From Acidobacteriota bacterium (GTDB lineage: Bacteria > Acidobacteriota > Terriglobia > Bryobacterales > Bryobacteraceae): a DNA stretch of 55,778 bases. The translations under genes and the position numbers were made by a program. Under the pieces are notes generated by a model. The model was not told where the DNA came from, did no database searches, and saw nothing but the letters and a program-made list of their open reading frames with translations. The DNA lies in assembly GCA_003223115.1 (NCBI GenBank), contig QHXW01000244.1:1-55778 (forward strand), read 5' to 3'. Of this stretch, positions 70-20,801 are shown in pieces (positions within the stretch are counted from its first letter, which is position 1; every line of letters begins with the position of its first letter).

Positions 70-2294
70 TAGTTTGCCGTCACTTTCAGATTGTCGAAAA
101 ATACGCCGTAGGTTGCATCGCCGAACAGGCCGGGGCTCCCTTCTCGATTGCCAATCGGATCCGCACGATCGATCAGCCACTTCTCGGGCTCACTCTCGGA
201 GGTGGGCCACGCCTTGCCTTGAATGCGCGTCCCATCCTCCGTATTTTCCACTCGCAGCTTCAGGTGATACCAGGTGTCCGGCTTCCAGGAAAAAGGCACT
301 GCTACATTGGTCGCCGTCTGGGGCTGCCATGAATATAGTTCCAACTGCTGGTTGTTGCCGAACAAGACCAGCGTATACCGTTGGGCTGTGACGCCGGCAT
401 CGCCCATCTGTCGCCGCTTTTCCGTCGCGCGCACATCGGCTTCAACCGTGTAATTCGACCAGTTCGTCGGACCCAGAAAGATGCGCATACGCTTGAACAA
501 TGTCTCGGTGGGCGCCTTGGCCAGCACTTTGCCGCCATCCAGCTCGCTCACTTTGAACTGCCCGGCTGTCGCGCCCACCCAATGCGCGGGCACTGCGCCC
601 ACGGCGACGGATTCAAAGGCTTCATTCCACGGCAGCGGCGGCACCACGCGCACGCGTGCGGCGCCGGATATACCGCCGATCGTAGCTTTCACCAGTCCCG
701 CTTGACCCGTTTTGTCTGTGGCGGCGGTGAACCGCCCGTCATCCACCGATCCTTTCAAACCCTCGAGCGACCACGTGGCTTTTTCCTCGCGCAGGAATTC
801 TCCGTGTTCATCAAAGAGCCGCGCTCGAAAATTCGCGCTTTGCCCGGATGTCAAAATCACTTCGGTGGGAACCACCTGGGCCCACGCGGGGGCGCCGGGA
901 GCCGGGGGCGGAGGCTCGTCGACAGCTGACTGCGCGGGCACTCGGATCTTTTTCCCGATGGCGTAGAGCGCGTCGCTCGATACGAAGTAAACCCGTCCAC
1001 GGGAAATCGCCGCGGAAGCCACTACCGGCTCCGGAATTTTTTCGTTGAAGAGGCCTTCCTGGCTGATGGGCAGTTCCACGCCGCTGAGAATTTCGCAGCG
1101 ATCCGTATGCGGCCGCAGAATATAAAATTTGCCGCTCTCGGTCCCGACGTAGATTTTGCCGTCGCCCAATACCAGCGAAGATTTTTGCACCGTTCCCAGG
1201 TTCTGCTTCCAAAGCTGGCGGCCAGTCACCGCGTCAAACGCATAAATGTTAGAGCTGTTGTCGACTTGTAAGTAGCGGTCACCATCGACAATACCCGATG
1301 AAAATTCTCCGATGAAGCCTTTCACGGTCCACTTCGCCTGGGCCATGGTGATGTTGCCTTTGGCCGTCGCGTCTATGGCGGCCAGCATTCCCATTTCATT
1401 CCCCTCGAGATTTTCCTGGCCGTGCGACACCATGACCGTAGTTCCGTTCAAAACCGGGGCGGTATTGATGGCGCGCTTGCTCAACAGAAAGTGCCAAACG
1501 GGTTCGCCCGTCGCGATCTTGATGGCGTGAACGCCGCCGTCGCCGAGTCCGGAAATCAACAGGCGAGTTCCATTGATGCGGGCGACAACAGGCTGCGAAT
1601 AATCGGTGTCGAAAGGACGTCCGCCGGGCGTGCTGATCCAAACGGTCTCGCCCGTGCGCTTGTCGAACGCCATAAAGCGAATGGAGCGGTTCGCCTGCTG
1701 GCCCCAGGTGGAACTGGCCGCGCTGACGATCACCAGATCACCATCCACCACCGGCGATACCGTGCGCCCGCCATGCGTGGTGAACAAATCGAATTCCTCG
1801 TCGAGCGAGCGCTCCCATAACTGCTTGCCGTCCTTCGAAAGCGCCAGCAGCGTGCCGTTGACTCCGAAGACGTACACATTACCGGTCTCGAGATCGGCGG
1901 CCGGTGACGCCCAGCCCACGCGGTGTGGCGGCACATCACTCTGGAAAATGTTGAAGCGGTGCTCCCACAGCAGTTTGCCCGTGTCGGCGTTGAAACACAT
2001 CACGCGCTCCTGCTGGGTCTCGCCTTTGCCCGCGGAGTTTTGCAGATACAGGTGATCTCCCAGCACGATCGGCGCGGAGCGGCCCCCGTAAGGAGCTTTC
2101 CATGCGAGATTCTGGCCCGAGAGGGACCATTTTTCCGGAAGGTTCTTCTCCCGTGAGATGCCGTCGCGATTCGGACCGCGCCAGTCCGGCCAGTCTCCCA
2201 CCGCCGGCAGGCGTGGAGGAGCGGCAACAAGGACGACCGCGGAGATCAACGCGAAGAGCAACAACGGCAATCGCTTCACAAGTTTAGCGTCCAT
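69..2294 (-). CDS. Secreted PQQ-type beta-propeller protein with C-terminal lectin-like domain
   Basis: The product is 741 aa from the ATG at 2294, which has AGGGAG 8 nt upstream. An in-frame start 28 codons earlier has no such site and would bury the signal peptide. After a hydrophobic leader come a D-W-R-G-P-N-R-D motif and repeated blades with G-x-x-Y/V and W-x-x-L patterns, as in PQQ-like propellers (PF13360). An Ig-like linker follows at about residue 475-560. The last ~190 residues resemble the concanavalin-like 3-keto-disaccharide hydrolase domain (WSNYTVEADVR, FDNLKV). Such proteins are numerous in Acidobacteria and Planctomycetes and are probably periplasmic or surface proteins. Binding of PQQ itself is not shown, and an enzymatic role is unproven. 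It is coupled to the gene at 1-69. Confidence 0.85.
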   Translation of the reverse strand: MDAKLVKRLPLLLFALISAVVLVAAPPRLPAVGDWPDWRGPNRDGISREKNLPEKWSLSGQNLAWKAPYGGRSAPIVLGDHLYLQNSAGKGETQQERVMCFNADTGKLLWEHRFNIFQSDVPPHRVGWASPAADLETGNVYVFGVNGTLLALSKDGKQLWERSLDEEFDLFTTHGGRTVSPVVDGDLVIVSAASSTWGQQANRSIRFMAFDKRTGETVWISTPGGRPFDTDYSQPVVARINGTRLLISGLGDGGVHAIKIATGEPVWHFLLSKRAINTAPVLNGTTVMVSHGQENLEGNEMGMLAAIDATAKGNITMAQAKWTVKGFIGEFSSGIVDGDRYLQVDNSSNIYAFDAVTGRQLWKQNLGTVQKSSLVLGDGKIYVGTESGKFYILRPHTDRCEILSGVELPISQEGLFNEKIPEPVVASAAISRGRVYFVSSDALYAIGKKIRVPAQSAVDEPPPPAPGAPAWAQVVPTEVILTSGQSANFRARLFDEHGEFLREEKATWSLEGLKGSVDDGRFTAATDKTGQAGLVKATIGGISGAARVRVVPPLPWNEAFESVAVGAVPAHWVGATAGQFKVSELDGGKVLAKAPTETLFKRMRIFLGPTNWSNYTVEADVRATEKRRQMGDAGVTAQRYTLVLFGNNQQLELYSWQPQTATNVAVPFSWKPDTWYHLKLRVENTEDGTRIQGKAWPTSESEPEKWLIDRADPIGNREGSPGLFGDATYGVFFDNLKVTAN

Positions 2295-11005: not shown

Positions 11006-11560
11006 TCAGGAAGACTTTACAGCAACTTTGACCATGGCGGGCCGCACAAGCCTGCCTTTGAAATTGTAGCCTTTTTGAAACTCCTCCAAAATGGTTTGAT
11101 CCGGCACGTCATCGGTCTGAACTCTTTCGACGGCCTGGTGCAGATTGGGGTCAAATTTTTTCCCTACCGTGTCCATCGGCTCGAGGCCCATCTTCTTTAG
11201 CGCTTCGTAGAGCCGGCTATAGATCAACTCCACGCCCTTGGTATACCTGGTGTCGGCGGATTCCACTTTCAGGGCACGCTCGAAATCGTCCAGAACCGGC
11301 AGGATCTCACGGACGAACTCCATACCGGCATACTGCAGAAAATCAGAGCGGTCGCGCTCGGTTCGCTTGCGGAAATTGTCGAAGTCAGCCTGCCGCCGCA
11401 ACAAACGATCGTAAAGTTCCGCTTTGTCGGCGGCCAGGCGGTCTCGCTCCGCGGTTAAGGCGGCCACCTGCGCATTCAGGTCCGTATAGGACGCGGGGTC
11501 CTTTTCCTCCGGTGACGGTGACATCGTACGCACTTCCGGGTCTAGATTCTCGCTGCTCAC
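11006..11560 (-). CDS. grpE: Nucleotide exchange factor GrpE
   Basis: The product is 184 aa from a GTG start. An acidic, disordered N-terminus leads into a long coiled coil (LNAQVAALTAERDRLAADKAE), then the DNFRKRTERDR motif and the C-terminal beta domain (GVELIYSRLYEALKKMGLEP, FDPNLHQAVERV). It releases ADP from DnaK. It lies 48 nt downstream of hrcA and 9 nt upstream of dnaJ in one leftward operon. Confidence 0.96.
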   Translation of the reverse strand: MSSENLDPEVRTMSPSPEEKDPASYTDLNAQVAALTAERDRLAADKAELYDRLLRRQADFDNFRKRTERDRSDFLQYAGMEFVREILPVLDDFERALKVESADTRYTKGVELIYSRLYEALKKMGLEPMDTVGKKFDPNLHQAVERVQTDDVPDQTILEEFQKGYNFKGRLVRPAMVKVAVKSS

Positions 11561-13256: not shown

Positions 13257-14270
13257 TTACCGCTCGTTCTCTTTGCGCAGTTGTTGCCAGCGCTCCAGCA
13301 ATTTGCGGGCTTCATCGGCGCGCCCGGTCGGCATCAGCAACTGCCCCAGCAGATAGTTCGCGGATGCGTTCTGCGGATCAATTTGGAGCGAGCGTCGTAA
13401 CATCGCCTCAGCGTTTCCGCTATCGCCTTTTTTGGAGTAAGCTTTGCCCAACAGAATGTACGGGCCGCTGAAGGTGGGATTCAGCCAGATGGATTTCTGC
13501 AGCAGCGGAATGGCGGTGTCCCATTGTTCGCGCCGCGTATAGGCGTCGGCCAGCCGGTAATAGGCGGTGCCGAAATCCGGATTGAGCGCGATCTCCTGCC
13601 TTAATTCCGAGATGGCTTCGTCCAGGTGCGCGTGAAAAATGGCCAGTTCACCCAGCAGAAAGTGCGCCGCGGGAATTTTTGGATCGATCTCGAACGCGCG
13701 GTGCAGTTCTTTTTCCGCCTGTTCTTCGAATTCCTGCCGCACCATCATCTGCGCAGTAAGCAGGTGCGCGGCCGCTGAATCCGGCGCCACATCAAACATG
13801 CGAGCGAACGCTCCGCGCGCTTTATCCGGATCGACGCTTTGAATGTAACTGTTGCCCAGCATGTAGAAAATCTCCGCGGTCCCCGCACCTGATTCCTCCG
13901 CTTTCTCGAGCCACGGAATGGCTTCGCGCAAATGGCCGCTCAGATAATGGCTGAGTCCCAGCATTTGCACTGATTCTTTATAGATTGTGGTGTCCTGGGG
14001 CGCCTGGCTCACTGCGCGCGTCAAAGCTTCAATCGCCGCCGGATATTCCCGCGAGCGATAGTGGAGCAATCCGGTTAAATACGCCACCTCGCGCTGCGAT
14101 TGATCCAAGCCCCTGAGCGCTTCACGCGCGTCCTTGAGTTTGCCTGCGTCGATGAGCGCGCGCGCATGAACAATGGGACTTTGGGCGGATGCCTGACCGC
14201 GAGCCGAAGTTTCTACCTGCGGGCTCGAAACCTGACAGAGCCACAGCAACGCGGCGAACGCGAGGTGCAC
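13257..14270 (-). CDS. Exported TPR-repeat protein
   Basis: The product is 337 aa from the GTG at 14270. A short hydrophobic leader (MHLAFAALLWLCQVSSP) is followed by at least seven tetratricopeptide repeats with the A/G-x-x-x-A-P pattern spaced about 34 residues. TPRs form protein-binding superhelices; this one is probably periplasmic or anchored at the outer membrane. It lies 31 nt downstream of the redoxin gene on the same strand and may be co-transcribed with it. A TATATT hexamer ends 5 nt before the GTG and there is no Shine-Dalgarno sequence, so a leaderless transcript is also possible. Confidence 0.85.
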   Translation of the reverse strand: MHLAFAALLWLCQVSSPQVETSARGQASAQSPIVHARALIDAGKLKDAREALRGLDQSQREVAYLTGLLHYRSREYPAAIEALTRAVSQAPQDTTIYKESVQMLGLSHYLSGHLREAIPWLEKAEESGAGTAEIFYMLGNSYIQSVDPDKARGAFARMFDVAPDSAAAHLLTAQMMVRQEFEEQAEKELHRAFEIDPKIPAAHFLLGELAIFHAHLDEAISELRQEIALNPDFGTAYYRLADAYTRREQWDTAIPLLQKSIWLNPTFSGPYILLGKAYSKKGDSGNAEAMLRRSLQIDPQNASANYLLGQLLMPTGRADEARKLLERWQQLRKENER

Positions 14271-14301: not shown

Positions 14302-14865
14302 CTAAGACCGCTTCTTGCGCGACGCGGCCGAATGCGCGGTCTTTTTCGCCGACACCGGTTCCTTCAGCAGATTCTCCACGAACATCCGGATGTTTTTGTC
14401 CTGGTCCTTCAGGAAATCATCCGAGCCCGAGAATTGGCCGCGGATCACGCGTTTGCGGTCCAGGAAGACTAACTCTGGAACGTAGGTCATCTTGCCGGCC
14501 GGATGCGCCATATAATCTTGCGCGGATTCTCGCGGCGCCCAGCCCATGGGAAAAGTGACTCCAAACTGCGCGATGAAGCTCGCCACCAGTTGGTCCGCAT
14601 TCGGGTTGAATGCCACGCCCAGAATCTCCAGACCGCGCGGACCGTATTCCTTTTGAATGCCGCTCAGAACCTGAGCGGTGTGCTGGCAGTGCGGTCAAGT
14701 GGTGAACAGGAACGCCAGCAAAACCACCTTGCCCGTGTACTGGCTCAGCAGTAGCTGGCTGCCGTTGGTCATGTTGATGACGAACTCGGGCGAAGGCCGG
14801 GGCACTGGCTGTGGGAACGCCGAGCCCACCAGCCCAAGAACAATGAGTGCAAAAGAGCGCCGCAT
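14302..14865 (-). CDS. Probable selenoprotein: exported thioredoxin-fold redoxin with UPHC active site
   Basis: The frame from the ATG at 14865 runs 188 codons with one internal TGA, at codon 57 (14697-14695). A signal peptide (MRRSFALIVLGLVGSAF) leads into a TlpA/AhpC-like thioredoxin fold: PEFVINMTNGSQLLLSQY, then GKVVLLAFLFTT, TGA, PHCQHTAQVLSGI and a C-terminal part with MTYVPELVFLDRKRVIRGQF. In a redoxin the residue after FTT is the attacking Cys of a C-x-x-C motif, so TGA replaces exactly that Cys and leaves the resolving Cys60. A perfect hairpin with a GUU loop follows (14660-14678), as in bacterial SECIS elements. I therefore read codon 57 as selenocysteine. Alternatives are a nonsense mutation (TGC or TGT to TGA) or a sequencing error. 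An automatic caller would keep only the 3' part, from a GTG at 14616, missing the active site. The product is probably a periplasmic disulfide or peroxide reductase. Confidence 0.75.
14660..14678 (-). promoter_or_regulatory. SECIS-like RNA hairpin
   Basis: On the coding strand CCGCTCAG-GTT-CTGAGCGG forms a perfect 8-bp stem with a GUU loop. Sixteen bases separate the TGA from the stem and 24 separate it from the loop, inside the 16-37 nt window used for bacterial SECIS searches. A G is the first loop base, as the consensus requires. The apex CAGGUUCUG closely resembles the apex I recall for E. coli fdhF (CAGGUCUG). Confidence 0.7.
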
Positions 14866-18249: not shown

Positions 18250-19472
18250 ATGACGAACTCCACGCATTCCTCACAAGAGTTGTACTCAAGAACTACAAGA
18301 TCATTGCGGCTTGCGACGTTCGTCTTGGTCCGCTCATGTTTCTTGTGGGGCCAAACGGGGCCGGAAAGAGCAATTTTCCTGGACTCGTTGCGCTTCGTTA
18401 CAGACTCCCTTCGGACCTCACTGGAGCATGCATTACGTGACAGGGAGGCATCAACGAGGTACGCCGCCGCTTTGGGGGACATCCAAACCATTTCGGACTT
18501 CGGCTCTATTTTTCCTTACCAACCGGCGAAGTGGGCCATTATGCGTTTCGCATTGGTGCGCGCCCTCAGGGCGGCTTTGAGGTTCAGGACGAGGAATGCA
18601 AGGTCCACTCTGCCGATGCTCGGGGAATGTGCAGCATTTTTAGTCAAGTCTGGTGAGGTCGTCGAAAGCAGCCAACCGGGCCCGGCCGCGTCCATCGACC
18701 GCCTGTATCTGGTAAGCGCGTCCGGCTTGCCTCAATTCCGGCCGATATACGACGCACTTTCCCGGATGGGTTTCTACAGCCTCAATCCGGACCGGAAAGG
18801 TGATCTACAATCGCCGGACGCTGGAGAGTTGCTTGCCGAGATGGCAGCAACATCACCAGCCTGCTGGTCCGCGAAGAAACATAATCCCGACCGCAAGCAG
18901 CGTATTGAGGACTATTTATCGAAGGTTGTACCGGGCGTGCACGGAGTTGACGTGAAAGTGATCGGCCCCAAAGAGACTCTCGAGTTTCGGCAGCAAGTCG
19001 CCGGCTCAAAAGACCCTTGGCGGTTTCAGGCAGCAAATATGTCCGATGGAACTCTACGCGCGCTCGGTATTCTGGTGTCGTTGTACCAGTCAAGTAACGG
19101 CGGCGCGGCTCGGGTTCCTCTGGTTGGGATCGAAGAGCCGGAGATCGCACTCCACCCGGCGGCCGCCGGGCTGCTTCTAGACAGTCTGCGCGAAGCCAGC
19201 CGCTCCACACAGGTGATGGTAACCAGCCACAGCCCTGACTTGCTGGATGACGAAAAGCTCGACACGGGATCGATTTTGGCACTCTACGCGGAGGGTGGAG
19301 GATCTACTCACGTCGCGCCACTAGATTAGATAAAGCTGGCCGAGAAGCCGTGCTGAACCGCCTTTATACACCCGGCGAATTGCTTCGCATGAATCAGGTG
19401 AGGCCTGACCCCAGTGCCGCTCCCGATAAGGTTGATACGCAGTTGCGGCTAGTAGACAAGGAAAGCATCTGA
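18250..19472 (+). pseudogene. Decayed AAA_21-type ATPase, first gene of an ATPase/DUF4276 pair
   Basis: Pieces of a ~400-aa SMC-like ATPase appear in three frames. They include TRVVLKNYKIIAACDVRLGP, a Walker A (GPNGAGKSNF), GGINEVRRRFGGHPNHFGLR, a signature region (NMSDGTLRALGILVSLYQ), Walker B (GIEEPEIALHP) and the D/H-loop (QVMVTSHSPDLLD). The C-terminal GELLRMNQVRPDPSAAPDKV lies after the first stop at 19329. Frame changes are needed near 18255, 18378, 18443, 18650 and 19330, plus a compensated pair near 18835-18890. The final TGA shares a base with the next ATG (TGATG). Such ATPases paired with DUF4276 resemble AAA-plus-TOPRIM-like defence modules, an inference. With so many indels this copy is dead. 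Confidence 0.85.
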
Positions 19473-19900
19473 TGCGAGCACGCATTGGCTGCATCGTCGA
19501 AGGACATGGAGAAACGGAATCGGTACCAATTCTGGTTCGGAGAATCGCCCACCAGTTTGATTTCTCCTTGCACGTCGACATACCTCATCCGATCCGAGGA
19601 GCAGGCTTCTGAAACCAGGGGAAGTTGGAAAGAGCTGTCGCTCTCGCGGCGCTAAATGTCCGGAGCGACGGCGGGATTCTCGCTATCTTGGACAGTGATC
19701 AGGATTGTCGGGCGCAGCTCGGCCAGGAATTGCTCCAGAGAGTTCGCAACGCGCGAGGGGATCTGCCTGCCGCGGTTGTGCTGCCGAAGTGCGAGTTCGA
19801 ATCTTGGTTTCTGGCTGCGGCCGAATCGCTTCGTGGCCGGCGAGGATTGCCAAATGACCTCGAACCCCCACCTCTCCCAGAAGAGGTGCGAGGCGCTAGC
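19472..19900 (+). pseudogene. Decayed DUF4276-family protein, partner of the ATPase
   Basis: From ATG 19472 the frame gives MRARIGCIVEGHGETESVP and the following LVRRIAHQFDF, the typical DUF4276 start (a TOPRIM-like E-G-x-x-E motif). An in-frame TGA interrupts it at about 19611. The expected LLKPGE lies one frame over, followed by a return to the first frame: LERAVALAALNVRSDGGILA, LDSDQDCRAQLG, CEFESWFLAAAESLRG. Similarity ends near 19900, about 60 residues short of a normal member, although the frame stays open into rsmE. Two compensating indels and a lost C-terminus mark it as a pseudogene decaying with its partner. Confidence 0.8.
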
Positions 19901-20015
19901 AGTCTGCCCAAAGTGGAACATCCAAGCTGCCAAACCGCCATAAAATCCAAACCAGCGGCTTGTGTTATACAAGACGGGCGAAGCCCTGGCCATTCACAGG
20001 TCGTACAATGGCCCG

Positions 20016-20801
20016 GTGGCGCGCCGCCGTTTTTTCGTCGATCGGATTCAAAATGGTTTCGCCGAGTTGAGCGGCGAAGATGCCCGCCACCTGGCGCGTG
20101 TTCTGCGCGCTGAAGCCGGGCAGCAGTACGAGATCTCCGACAACGAGCGCATGTATCTTGCGGAAATTTCCGAAACCAAGGCCGGCCGGTTGATCTTCCG
20201 TGTTCTCGAGCCAGTATTTATCGGAGAGCAAGCGGATGCGCTGCCCGCGATCACACTTTTCGCGGCGCTCATCAAGTTCGACCGTTTCGAATGGATGGTG
20301 GAGAAGGCCACCGAACTCGGCGTCGCCGGCATCGTTCCCTTCGAGGCGGAACGCAGCGAGAAAGGACTGGCCCTTGCTGCCCGGAAGCGCATCGAGCGTT
20401 GGCGCAGGATCGCCCGCGAAAGCAGCCAGCAGTCGCGGCGCACCCATCTGCCTGAAATCGAGCCGCCCCGCGCCTTTTCCGAGGTGCTTTCAGATGCCTC
20501 GCGTCATCGCTATTTCCTGGACGAACAGCCCGGCGGACGTCCCCTGCTCGAGGCCTTTCCGCCGGTCTCGGGGCGCGTTCGCGAAGCTACAATTGCGTTG
20601 CTCATCGGTCCCGAAGGCGGCTGGACGGACTCGGAACGCGATCAGGCTCAAACGGCAGGTTGGGCGCCTGTTTCGGCCGGCCCCACCATTCTACGCGCCG
20701 AAACAGCCGCAACCGCCGCCCTGGCCATTACGCTTAACGCCTGGTGGGTCTTCATACATTCAACACAAGGCTCTTTGGAAACAGGTCCCGACTGCCGATA
20801 A
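20016..20801 (+). CDS. rsmE: 16S rRNA (uracil-1498-N3)-methyltransferase RsmE
   Basis: The product is 261 aa from GTG 20016 (V-A-R-R-R-F-F-V, the conserved start). An out-of-frame ATG 8 nt upstream (20008) has the better-placed AGG, so the exact start is slightly uncertain. It has a PUA-like N-terminal domain (ELSGEDARHLARVLRAEAGQ) and a SPOUT knot with KFDRFEWMVEKATELGV, LLIGPEGGWTDSE and ILRAETAATAALA. It methylates U1498 in the small-subunit decoding region using SAM. It starts inside the degraded tail of the DUF4276 frame and is followed 11 nt later by a metallophosphoesterase gene. Confidence 0.94.
   Translation: MARRRFFVDRIQNGFAELSGEDARHLARVLRAEAGQQYEISDNERMYLAEISETKAGRLIFRVLEPVFIGEQADALPAITLFAALIKFDRFEWMVEKATELGVAGIVPFEAERSEKGLALAARKRIERWRRIARESSQQSRRTHLPEIEPPRAFSEVLSDASRHRYFLDEQPGGRPLLEAFPPVSGRVREATIALLIGPEGGWTDSERDQAQTAGWAPVSAGPTILRAETAATAALAITLNAWWVFIHSTQGSLETGPDCR

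Follow-up and report, generated by a model that had tools for sequence, protein, structure and literature searches.

The window analysed here, a stretch of 55,778 nucleotides, carries on its minus strand a redoxin-like gene that is interrupted by an in-frame TGA and is followed by a gene for a TPR protein (Table 1). The original prediction, which had been made from the letters of the window, described one continuous frame of 188 codons with a TGA in the place of the attacking cysteine of a thioredoxin-fold protein, and warned that standard annotation would lose the active-site half. All of this is borne out. With the terminal TAG counted, the frame has 188 codons and encodes 187 residues; its sole internal stop is the TGA at codon 57 (context ...FTTUPHCQ...), and this codon is the first position of the C-P-H-C motif. 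The protein has the Pfam domains AhpC-TSA (1.8e-12; 47.7 bits, cut-off 26) and Redoxin (3.3e-11; 43.6 bits, cut-off 26.6) with UPHC as its UxxC motif, and the AlphaFold2 model (mean pLDDT 90.7) is a thioredoxin fold in which UPHC opens a long helix. The list of open reading frames of at least 90 aa gives no more of the frame than a GTG ORF of 104 aa (14302-14616), from which the active site is missing. Position 57 (selenocysteine, entered as C) is invariant in the 33 aligned proteins, as are the two residues listed in Table 1; Pro130 is presumably the cis-proline, a role known from thioredoxin folds.

Table 1. Features of the selenoredoxin locus (positions in the window)
Feature	Position	Strand	Description and basis
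Selenoredoxin CDS	14302..14865	-	187 aa with UGA = Sec, stop TAG; Pfam and AlphaFold2
TGA within the frame (codon 57), the presumed selenocysteine codon	14695..14697	-	aligns with the Cys of the CPHC of homologues
Cys60, resolving cysteine of U-P-H-C	14686..14688	-	invariant in 33 aligned proteins; near the N-terminus of helix 58-77 (model)
Pro130, likely cis-proline facing the active site	14476..14478	-	invariant in 33 aligned proteins; directly before strand 131-135 (model)
Probable signal peptide, residues 1-19	14809..14865	-	judged by eye; low-confidence part of the model
bSECIS hairpin, 8-bp stem, GUU loop	14660..14678	-	sequence, folding, covariation
Neighbouring TPR protein, possibly cotranscribed	13257..14270	-	starts 31 nt past the selenoredoxin stop

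The own genome encodes in addition a paralogue of the selenoredoxin with 44% identity and without internal stop (contig C364). A crude scan of the window for stops found 115 with an open frame on both sides, 47 of which, including the selenoredoxin TGA, have a coding-like composition on both sides; adjacent same-frame genes and shadow frames are expected among these 47. TGA is the terminal codon of an ordinary ORF in the window (11006-11560, GrpE-like by eye), which speaks against a genome-wide reassignment of UGA.

The hairpin that had been described downstream of the TGA is exact. A perfect 8-bp stem, CCGCTCAG-GTT-CTGAGCGG, starts 16 nt past the TGA, and its loop begins 24 nt past the TGA with a G as the first base (minus strand: 5′ arm 14678-14671, loop 14670-14668, 3′ arm 14667-14660). 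As given in PMC13188914, the rules for bacterial SECIS elements (bSECIS) ask for a stem of 4-16 bp, a loop of 3-9 nt with a G within the first two loop bases, a distance of 16-37 nt between UGA and loop, and a minimum free energy of at most -7.5 kcal/mol. The hairpin of the window agrees with these rules in every respect (8 bp, 3 nt, G first, 24 nt, -13.5 kcal/mol), and none of 200 shuffles folded equally low (z = -3.9). When synonymous codons were drawn at random with the protein fixed, a stem of at least 8 bp turned up somewhere in the allowed range in 73 of 2000 draws. Taken alone the hairpin of the window gene is only moderately unlikely, and it is the homologues that carry the case. At 20 nt such a hairpin is also too poor in information for a covariance model to pick out further selenoproteins in a 9-Mb genome.

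The machinery genes that the original prediction had proposed to search for are present in the genome to which the window belongs (9.1 Mb, 594 contigs, 97.5% complete). selA, selB and selD were found with 496.8, 370.9 and 356.8 bits, each above the curated cut-off, together with a tRNA-Sec of anticodon TCA (tRNA-Sec(UCA), 69.9 bits). A second match to tRNA-Sec (48.9 bits at a threshold of 47) is typed as tRNA-Ser by ARAGORN. selB exceeds the cut-off in 128 of 150 sampled genomes of the family and in 14 of the 15 genomes with a Sec form (10/10 inside the 150-genome sample, 4/5 outside). In genome G186, which harbors the Sec-form gene L091, no selB was detected at E<=1e-40, an absence that is unsure given a completeness of 87%. 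With selB this widespread in the family, its presence hardly discriminates, and the association of selB with TGA was discarded as uninformative. The SelD of the own genome (L022:1414-2463, minus strand, contig C289) has an in-frame TGA in AAGUASKL and is itself a candidate selenoprotein. AAGUASKL fits the motif UxxK under which Sec-SelD is catalogued (PMC13188914 Table 1); the fold 3′ of the selD TGA is hairpin-like and not clear-cut (z -2.0, 8 of 200 shuffles equally low).

Of 150 genomes sampled from the same family, 148 contain a homologue of the window protein (P0001) at E <= 1e-10. In a set of copies seven genes had TGA at the aligned codon and the rest had Cys. The alignment of homologues, which the original prediction had suggested as a check, comprises 69 rows, of which 15 have TGA and 54 a Cys codon (TGC or TGT) at the site, with no other codon among them. 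All 79 homologous segments that were scored (duplicates included) span the site, so that no row with TAA or TAG was dropped. The TGA form was also searched in 237 genomes of the family with the pattern ACNTGACCNCAYTGYCA, which is independent of the hairpin, ends 5′ of it and thus avoids circularity. This search returned 19 matches in 17 genomes, compared with 2 for the reversed control pattern. Fifteen of the matches are in-frame homologues with TGA, from 15 genomes and 9 genera, and the remaining four show neither homology nor hairpin. A TGA that recurs at one codon in so many genomes and genera makes an isolated sequencing error untenable.

Among 396 genomes sampled across the phylum, 3 from this family and 393 from outside it, the same pattern found the own gene and 8 others, none of the 8 being homologous; the reversed control gave 6 matches. 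By the ACNTGACCNCAYTGYCA pattern, the putative UPHC selenoredoxin is found only in this family, and Sec forms with another local sequence would escape it. A further pattern that includes the hairpin core was run on a species-level genome collection, from which records of the own genome were possibly left out, and yielded 13 stretches: 11 TGA members of the family, one chance match (L078) and one gene for another protein (L079, see below). The 11 family contigs are titled Acidobacteria, Bryobacterales, Bryobacteraceae, Terriglobia or 'Candidatus Solibacter usitatus', and all of them MAG. Their genes are the same sequences as 11 of the 15 homologues found with ACNTGACCNCAYTGYCA and are thus no further evidence.

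In all 15 TGA homologues the hairpin is centred on the same nucleotide. The stem has 7-8 bp around a GUY triloop in 12 of them and 6 bp around GGUCA in the three sequences of genus g42 (L090-L092), and all 15 rows have the same GGU at the apex. The original prediction had asked whether the hairpin persists only in TGA forms, and indeed the Cys homologues aligned at the UGA do not keep it: an aligned stem of at least 7 bp is present in 12 of 15 TGA rows versus one of 54 Cys rows (L028), these Cys rows being the best matches and the matches flagged with stops and not a random sample. If hairpins are scored anywhere in the allowed range the separation is less sharp than at the aligned place (at least 6 bp in 15/15 Sec versus 10/54 Cys rows), and 17 of the 54 Cys rows likewise fold at <= -7.5 kcal/mol in the hairpin stretch.

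The stem covaries. Among 14 distinct rows 91.1% of the cells of the 8-bp stem are paired, versus 26-41% with slid partners, and compensatory changes occur at three pairs, namely columns 21-37 (C-G, U-A or G-C), 22-36 (G-C or A-U) and 24-34 (U-A or C-G). The 11 compensatory cells and the covariation score were matched in none of 500 shuffles. Two other measures do not stand out, as 212 of 500 shuffles reached the count of pairs with a change on both sides and 490 of 500 the count of further pair types. Synonymous shuffling of each gene gave an equally long stem in 11-110 of 2000 draws (0.5-5.5%) for 12 of the 15 TGA rows; the 6-bp stem of L090-L092 was equalled in length by 921-1219 of 2000 draws (46-61%) and is not rarer than chance.

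Purifying selection is observed on either side of the UGA. For the sequence past the UGA, dN/dS was 0.13-0.26 in the five Sec-Sec pairs tested, in four of which dS is 1.2-1.4 and hence near saturation. The ratio for the window gene against two Cys relatives from its genus was 0.32-0.38. In a maximum-likelihood tree of the 69 homologues Sec and Cys forms interleave; 7 Sec/Cys changes are needed, and the strong branches alone force at least 5.

Three other explanations of these findings have to be weighed. The TGA might be an ordinary stop, brought about by a point nonsense mutation or an assembly error, in a gene that is dying. A single base change indeed turns a Cys codon into TGA, the genome is in 594 contigs, and the original prediction itself had raised as a doubt that further nonsense codons occur in the window. 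This scenario is nevertheless opposed by the 15 genomes of 9 genera with TGA at the same codon, by the 69 rows among which TAA and TAG never occupy the site, by the low dN/dS between Sec forms past the TGA and by the compensatory changes in the hairpin. The recurrence of the TGA refutes a pseudogene as the general explanation, and we consider it very improbable. It is just as improbable that the UGA is read through as another residue such as Cys or Trp, by a near-cognate or suppressor tRNA, giving a mixture of truncated and full-length protein. In general, readthrough can be promoted by a stem 3′ of a stop codon, and Cys holds the site in 54 of 69 rows; yet a complete Sec machinery including a tRNA-Sec (UCA) is present in the same genome, the hairpin geometry fits the published bSECIS rules, and the GGU at the apex does not vary in any of the 15 rows.

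It is likewise very improbable that the hairpin simply follows from the conserved peptide (A/T)-Q-V-L-S and plays no part in recoding. The Sec forms do have AQVLS/TQVLS or AQVMG in common, and equally long stems arise in the percentages of synonymous draws given above, which for L090-L092 amount to about half. Against this, one compensatory change couples a first codon position (Ala GCT / Thr ACT) to a silent third position (Ser AGC / AGT), the next outer pair varies between C-G, U-A and G-C, and 53 of the 54 Cys rows have no stem of at least 7 bp at this place. The reading as a selenoprotein, in which UGA is decoded as selenocysteine, is strongly supported by these sequence comparisons. Neither the machinery genes nor the Cys homologues gave an outcome that the original prediction had named as refuting.

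The solved proteins closest to the window protein are ResA (E 1.1e-18 by profile, 6.0e-13 by Foldseek), and related TlpA/DsbE-type oxidoreductases are also found. ResA and TlpA are exported thiol-disulfide oxidoreductases, and the Bacillus ResA structures 4nmu, 1st9 and 2f9s, closest by profile and by structure, have the fold that is predicted for the window protein. With high confidence we suggest that the gene encodes an exported ResA/TlpA-like U-P-H-C thiol-disulfide oxidoreductase, that SelB and the hairpin insert selenocysteine at the UGA, and that Sec57 and Cys60 exchange disulfides outside the cytoplasmic membrane. SelB with Sec-tRNA(UCA) would bind the hairpin at nucleotides 17-35 past the UGA (apical loop G-U), and the SelB-bound hairpin would direct the insertion of selenocysteine in place of termination. 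On the outer side of the cytoplasmic membrane the attack or the formation of a mixed selenosulfide would fall to Sec57 and its resolution to Cys60, and the selenoredoxin would swap electrons with a substrate disulfide or thiol in the way of ResA/DsbA-type proteins. The predicted role in disulfide exchange outside the cytoplasm is likely; the decoding, the export, the direction of the redox reaction and the substrate are what we infer.

Proteins of PF00578 and PF08534 with a UxxC motif figure among the catalogued selenoprotein families (PMC13188914, PMC9312934, PMC2398784 and PMC1088965). The catalogue entries, as tabulated in Table 1 of PMC13188914 and Table 1 of PMC9312934, are 'Redoxin family protein' (PF08534, UxxC) and 'Prx-like thiol:disulfide oxidoreductase' (PF00578, UxxC/UxxU). 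The group described here has with these catalogued selenoproteins the domain, the UxxC motif, a bSECIS just 3′ of the UGA and Cys homologues in common; the likeness to the catalogued families (representatives e.g. HEU0032618.1, WP_010940744.1) was drawn by domain and motif. As to the phylum, the reviews PMC13188914 and PMC9312934 contain no word beginning with Acidobacteri in their main text, and the sole relevant passage of PMC5029168 is without Acidobacteria. One table attributes 3 families with 4 selenoproteins to Acidobacteria (PMC1794560), and three known selenoprotein genes are listed for Occallatibacter riparius (PMC12013277). In the literature on selenoproteins together with Acidobacteriota, Bryobacteraceae or Solibacter, or on 'redoxin family protein', the group is in no title or abstract among the matches listed, and it may stand unnamed in earlier lists.

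The window protein reaches the cut-off of none of the NCBIfam models. It stays below the curated cut-off for ResA (NF002854, 46.4 versus 170 bits). WAxxUGC, TUGYCR and SelL-related redoxins (NF041054, NF053656 and NF040769) are by name thioredoxin-fold families that include selenoproteins, and the window protein does not belong to them, with scores of 20.5, 13.4 and 15.8 bits at cut-offs of 300, 100 and 120. A further difference concerns the motif: U/C-P-H-C is natural in the window group, whereas the ResA variant 3c71, called DsbA-like in its title, was engineered to have CPHC. We are thus dealing with a well-delimited new group among the known UxxC redoxin/Prx-like selenoproteins and not with a new system. 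What goes beyond the original prediction is the Sec/Cys pair that recurs across a family, the closest solved relatives being of ResA/TlpA type, and the finding that UxxC redoxin selenoproteins are already catalogued.

Two loci bear on the exchange of Sec and Cys at this single codon. Genome G075 (L029:1361-2416, plus strand) has a tandem pair of redoxin genes, one of the Cys and one of the Sec form, which the tree joins as sisters (support 96/97). In genome G094, which belongs to the genus of the window, the Cys homologue L028 has near 1671-1720 (plus strand) a 7-bp stem, GACTCAG-CTT-CTGAGTC, at the place of the SECIS. Its loop is CUU where the Sec forms have GUU, which means that the loop G is lost, and the stem is likely a fossil SECIS. 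We consider it rather probable, on balance, that the exported UPHC selenoredoxins form an as yet unnamed subfamily, found in this analysis only in one Acidobacteriota family, in which Sec and Cys were swapped several times at one codon, including in the tandem copies of L029, and that L028 marks a step from Sec to Cys. Under standard stop-codon rules the selenoredoxin gene has no complete ORF. For the question why selenium is retained or given up in a redox enzyme, the group is a compact natural experiment: a single bacterial family holds close relatives, Sec and Cys copies in tandem and what is probably a fossil SECIS, and compensatory SECIS variants come ready-made for tests.

When the neighbourhoods of 12 TGA loci were compared (ORFs of at least 110 aa within 4.5 kb, as far as the sequence at each locus extended) nothing was found that is common to all. 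The window and L084 have an anthranilate synthase gene upstream in common, L080, L081 and L087 a downstream gene, and L080 and L085 an upstream gene. A relative of the TPR gene of the window is present at L077 on the opposite side. As the TPR gene is not at this place in the other TGA loci compared, it was not counted as part of the system.

Two observations lie apart from the selenoredoxin family. On the plus strand of the window, at 18250-20110, a gene for an AAA_21/AbiEii-type ATPase (Pfam 7.1e-18) is followed by an ORF without Pfam match (19625-20110), which overlaps the next ORF (19962-20801); the ATPase and the ORF are perhaps a worn defence-type module. The protein encoded by L079 (345-1109, minus strand, Myxococcales MAG contig CALMUT010000132.1) is different from the selenoredoxin, apparently exported as judged by eye, and has no Pfam match. 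Its gene has an in-frame TGA in the context HISAFTUPGCKQAAQVLG and, by eye, a hairpin CCCAG-GTC-TTGGG, and the genome has a selB of 294 bits. It is possible that L079 encodes a further thioredoxin-like selenoprotein.
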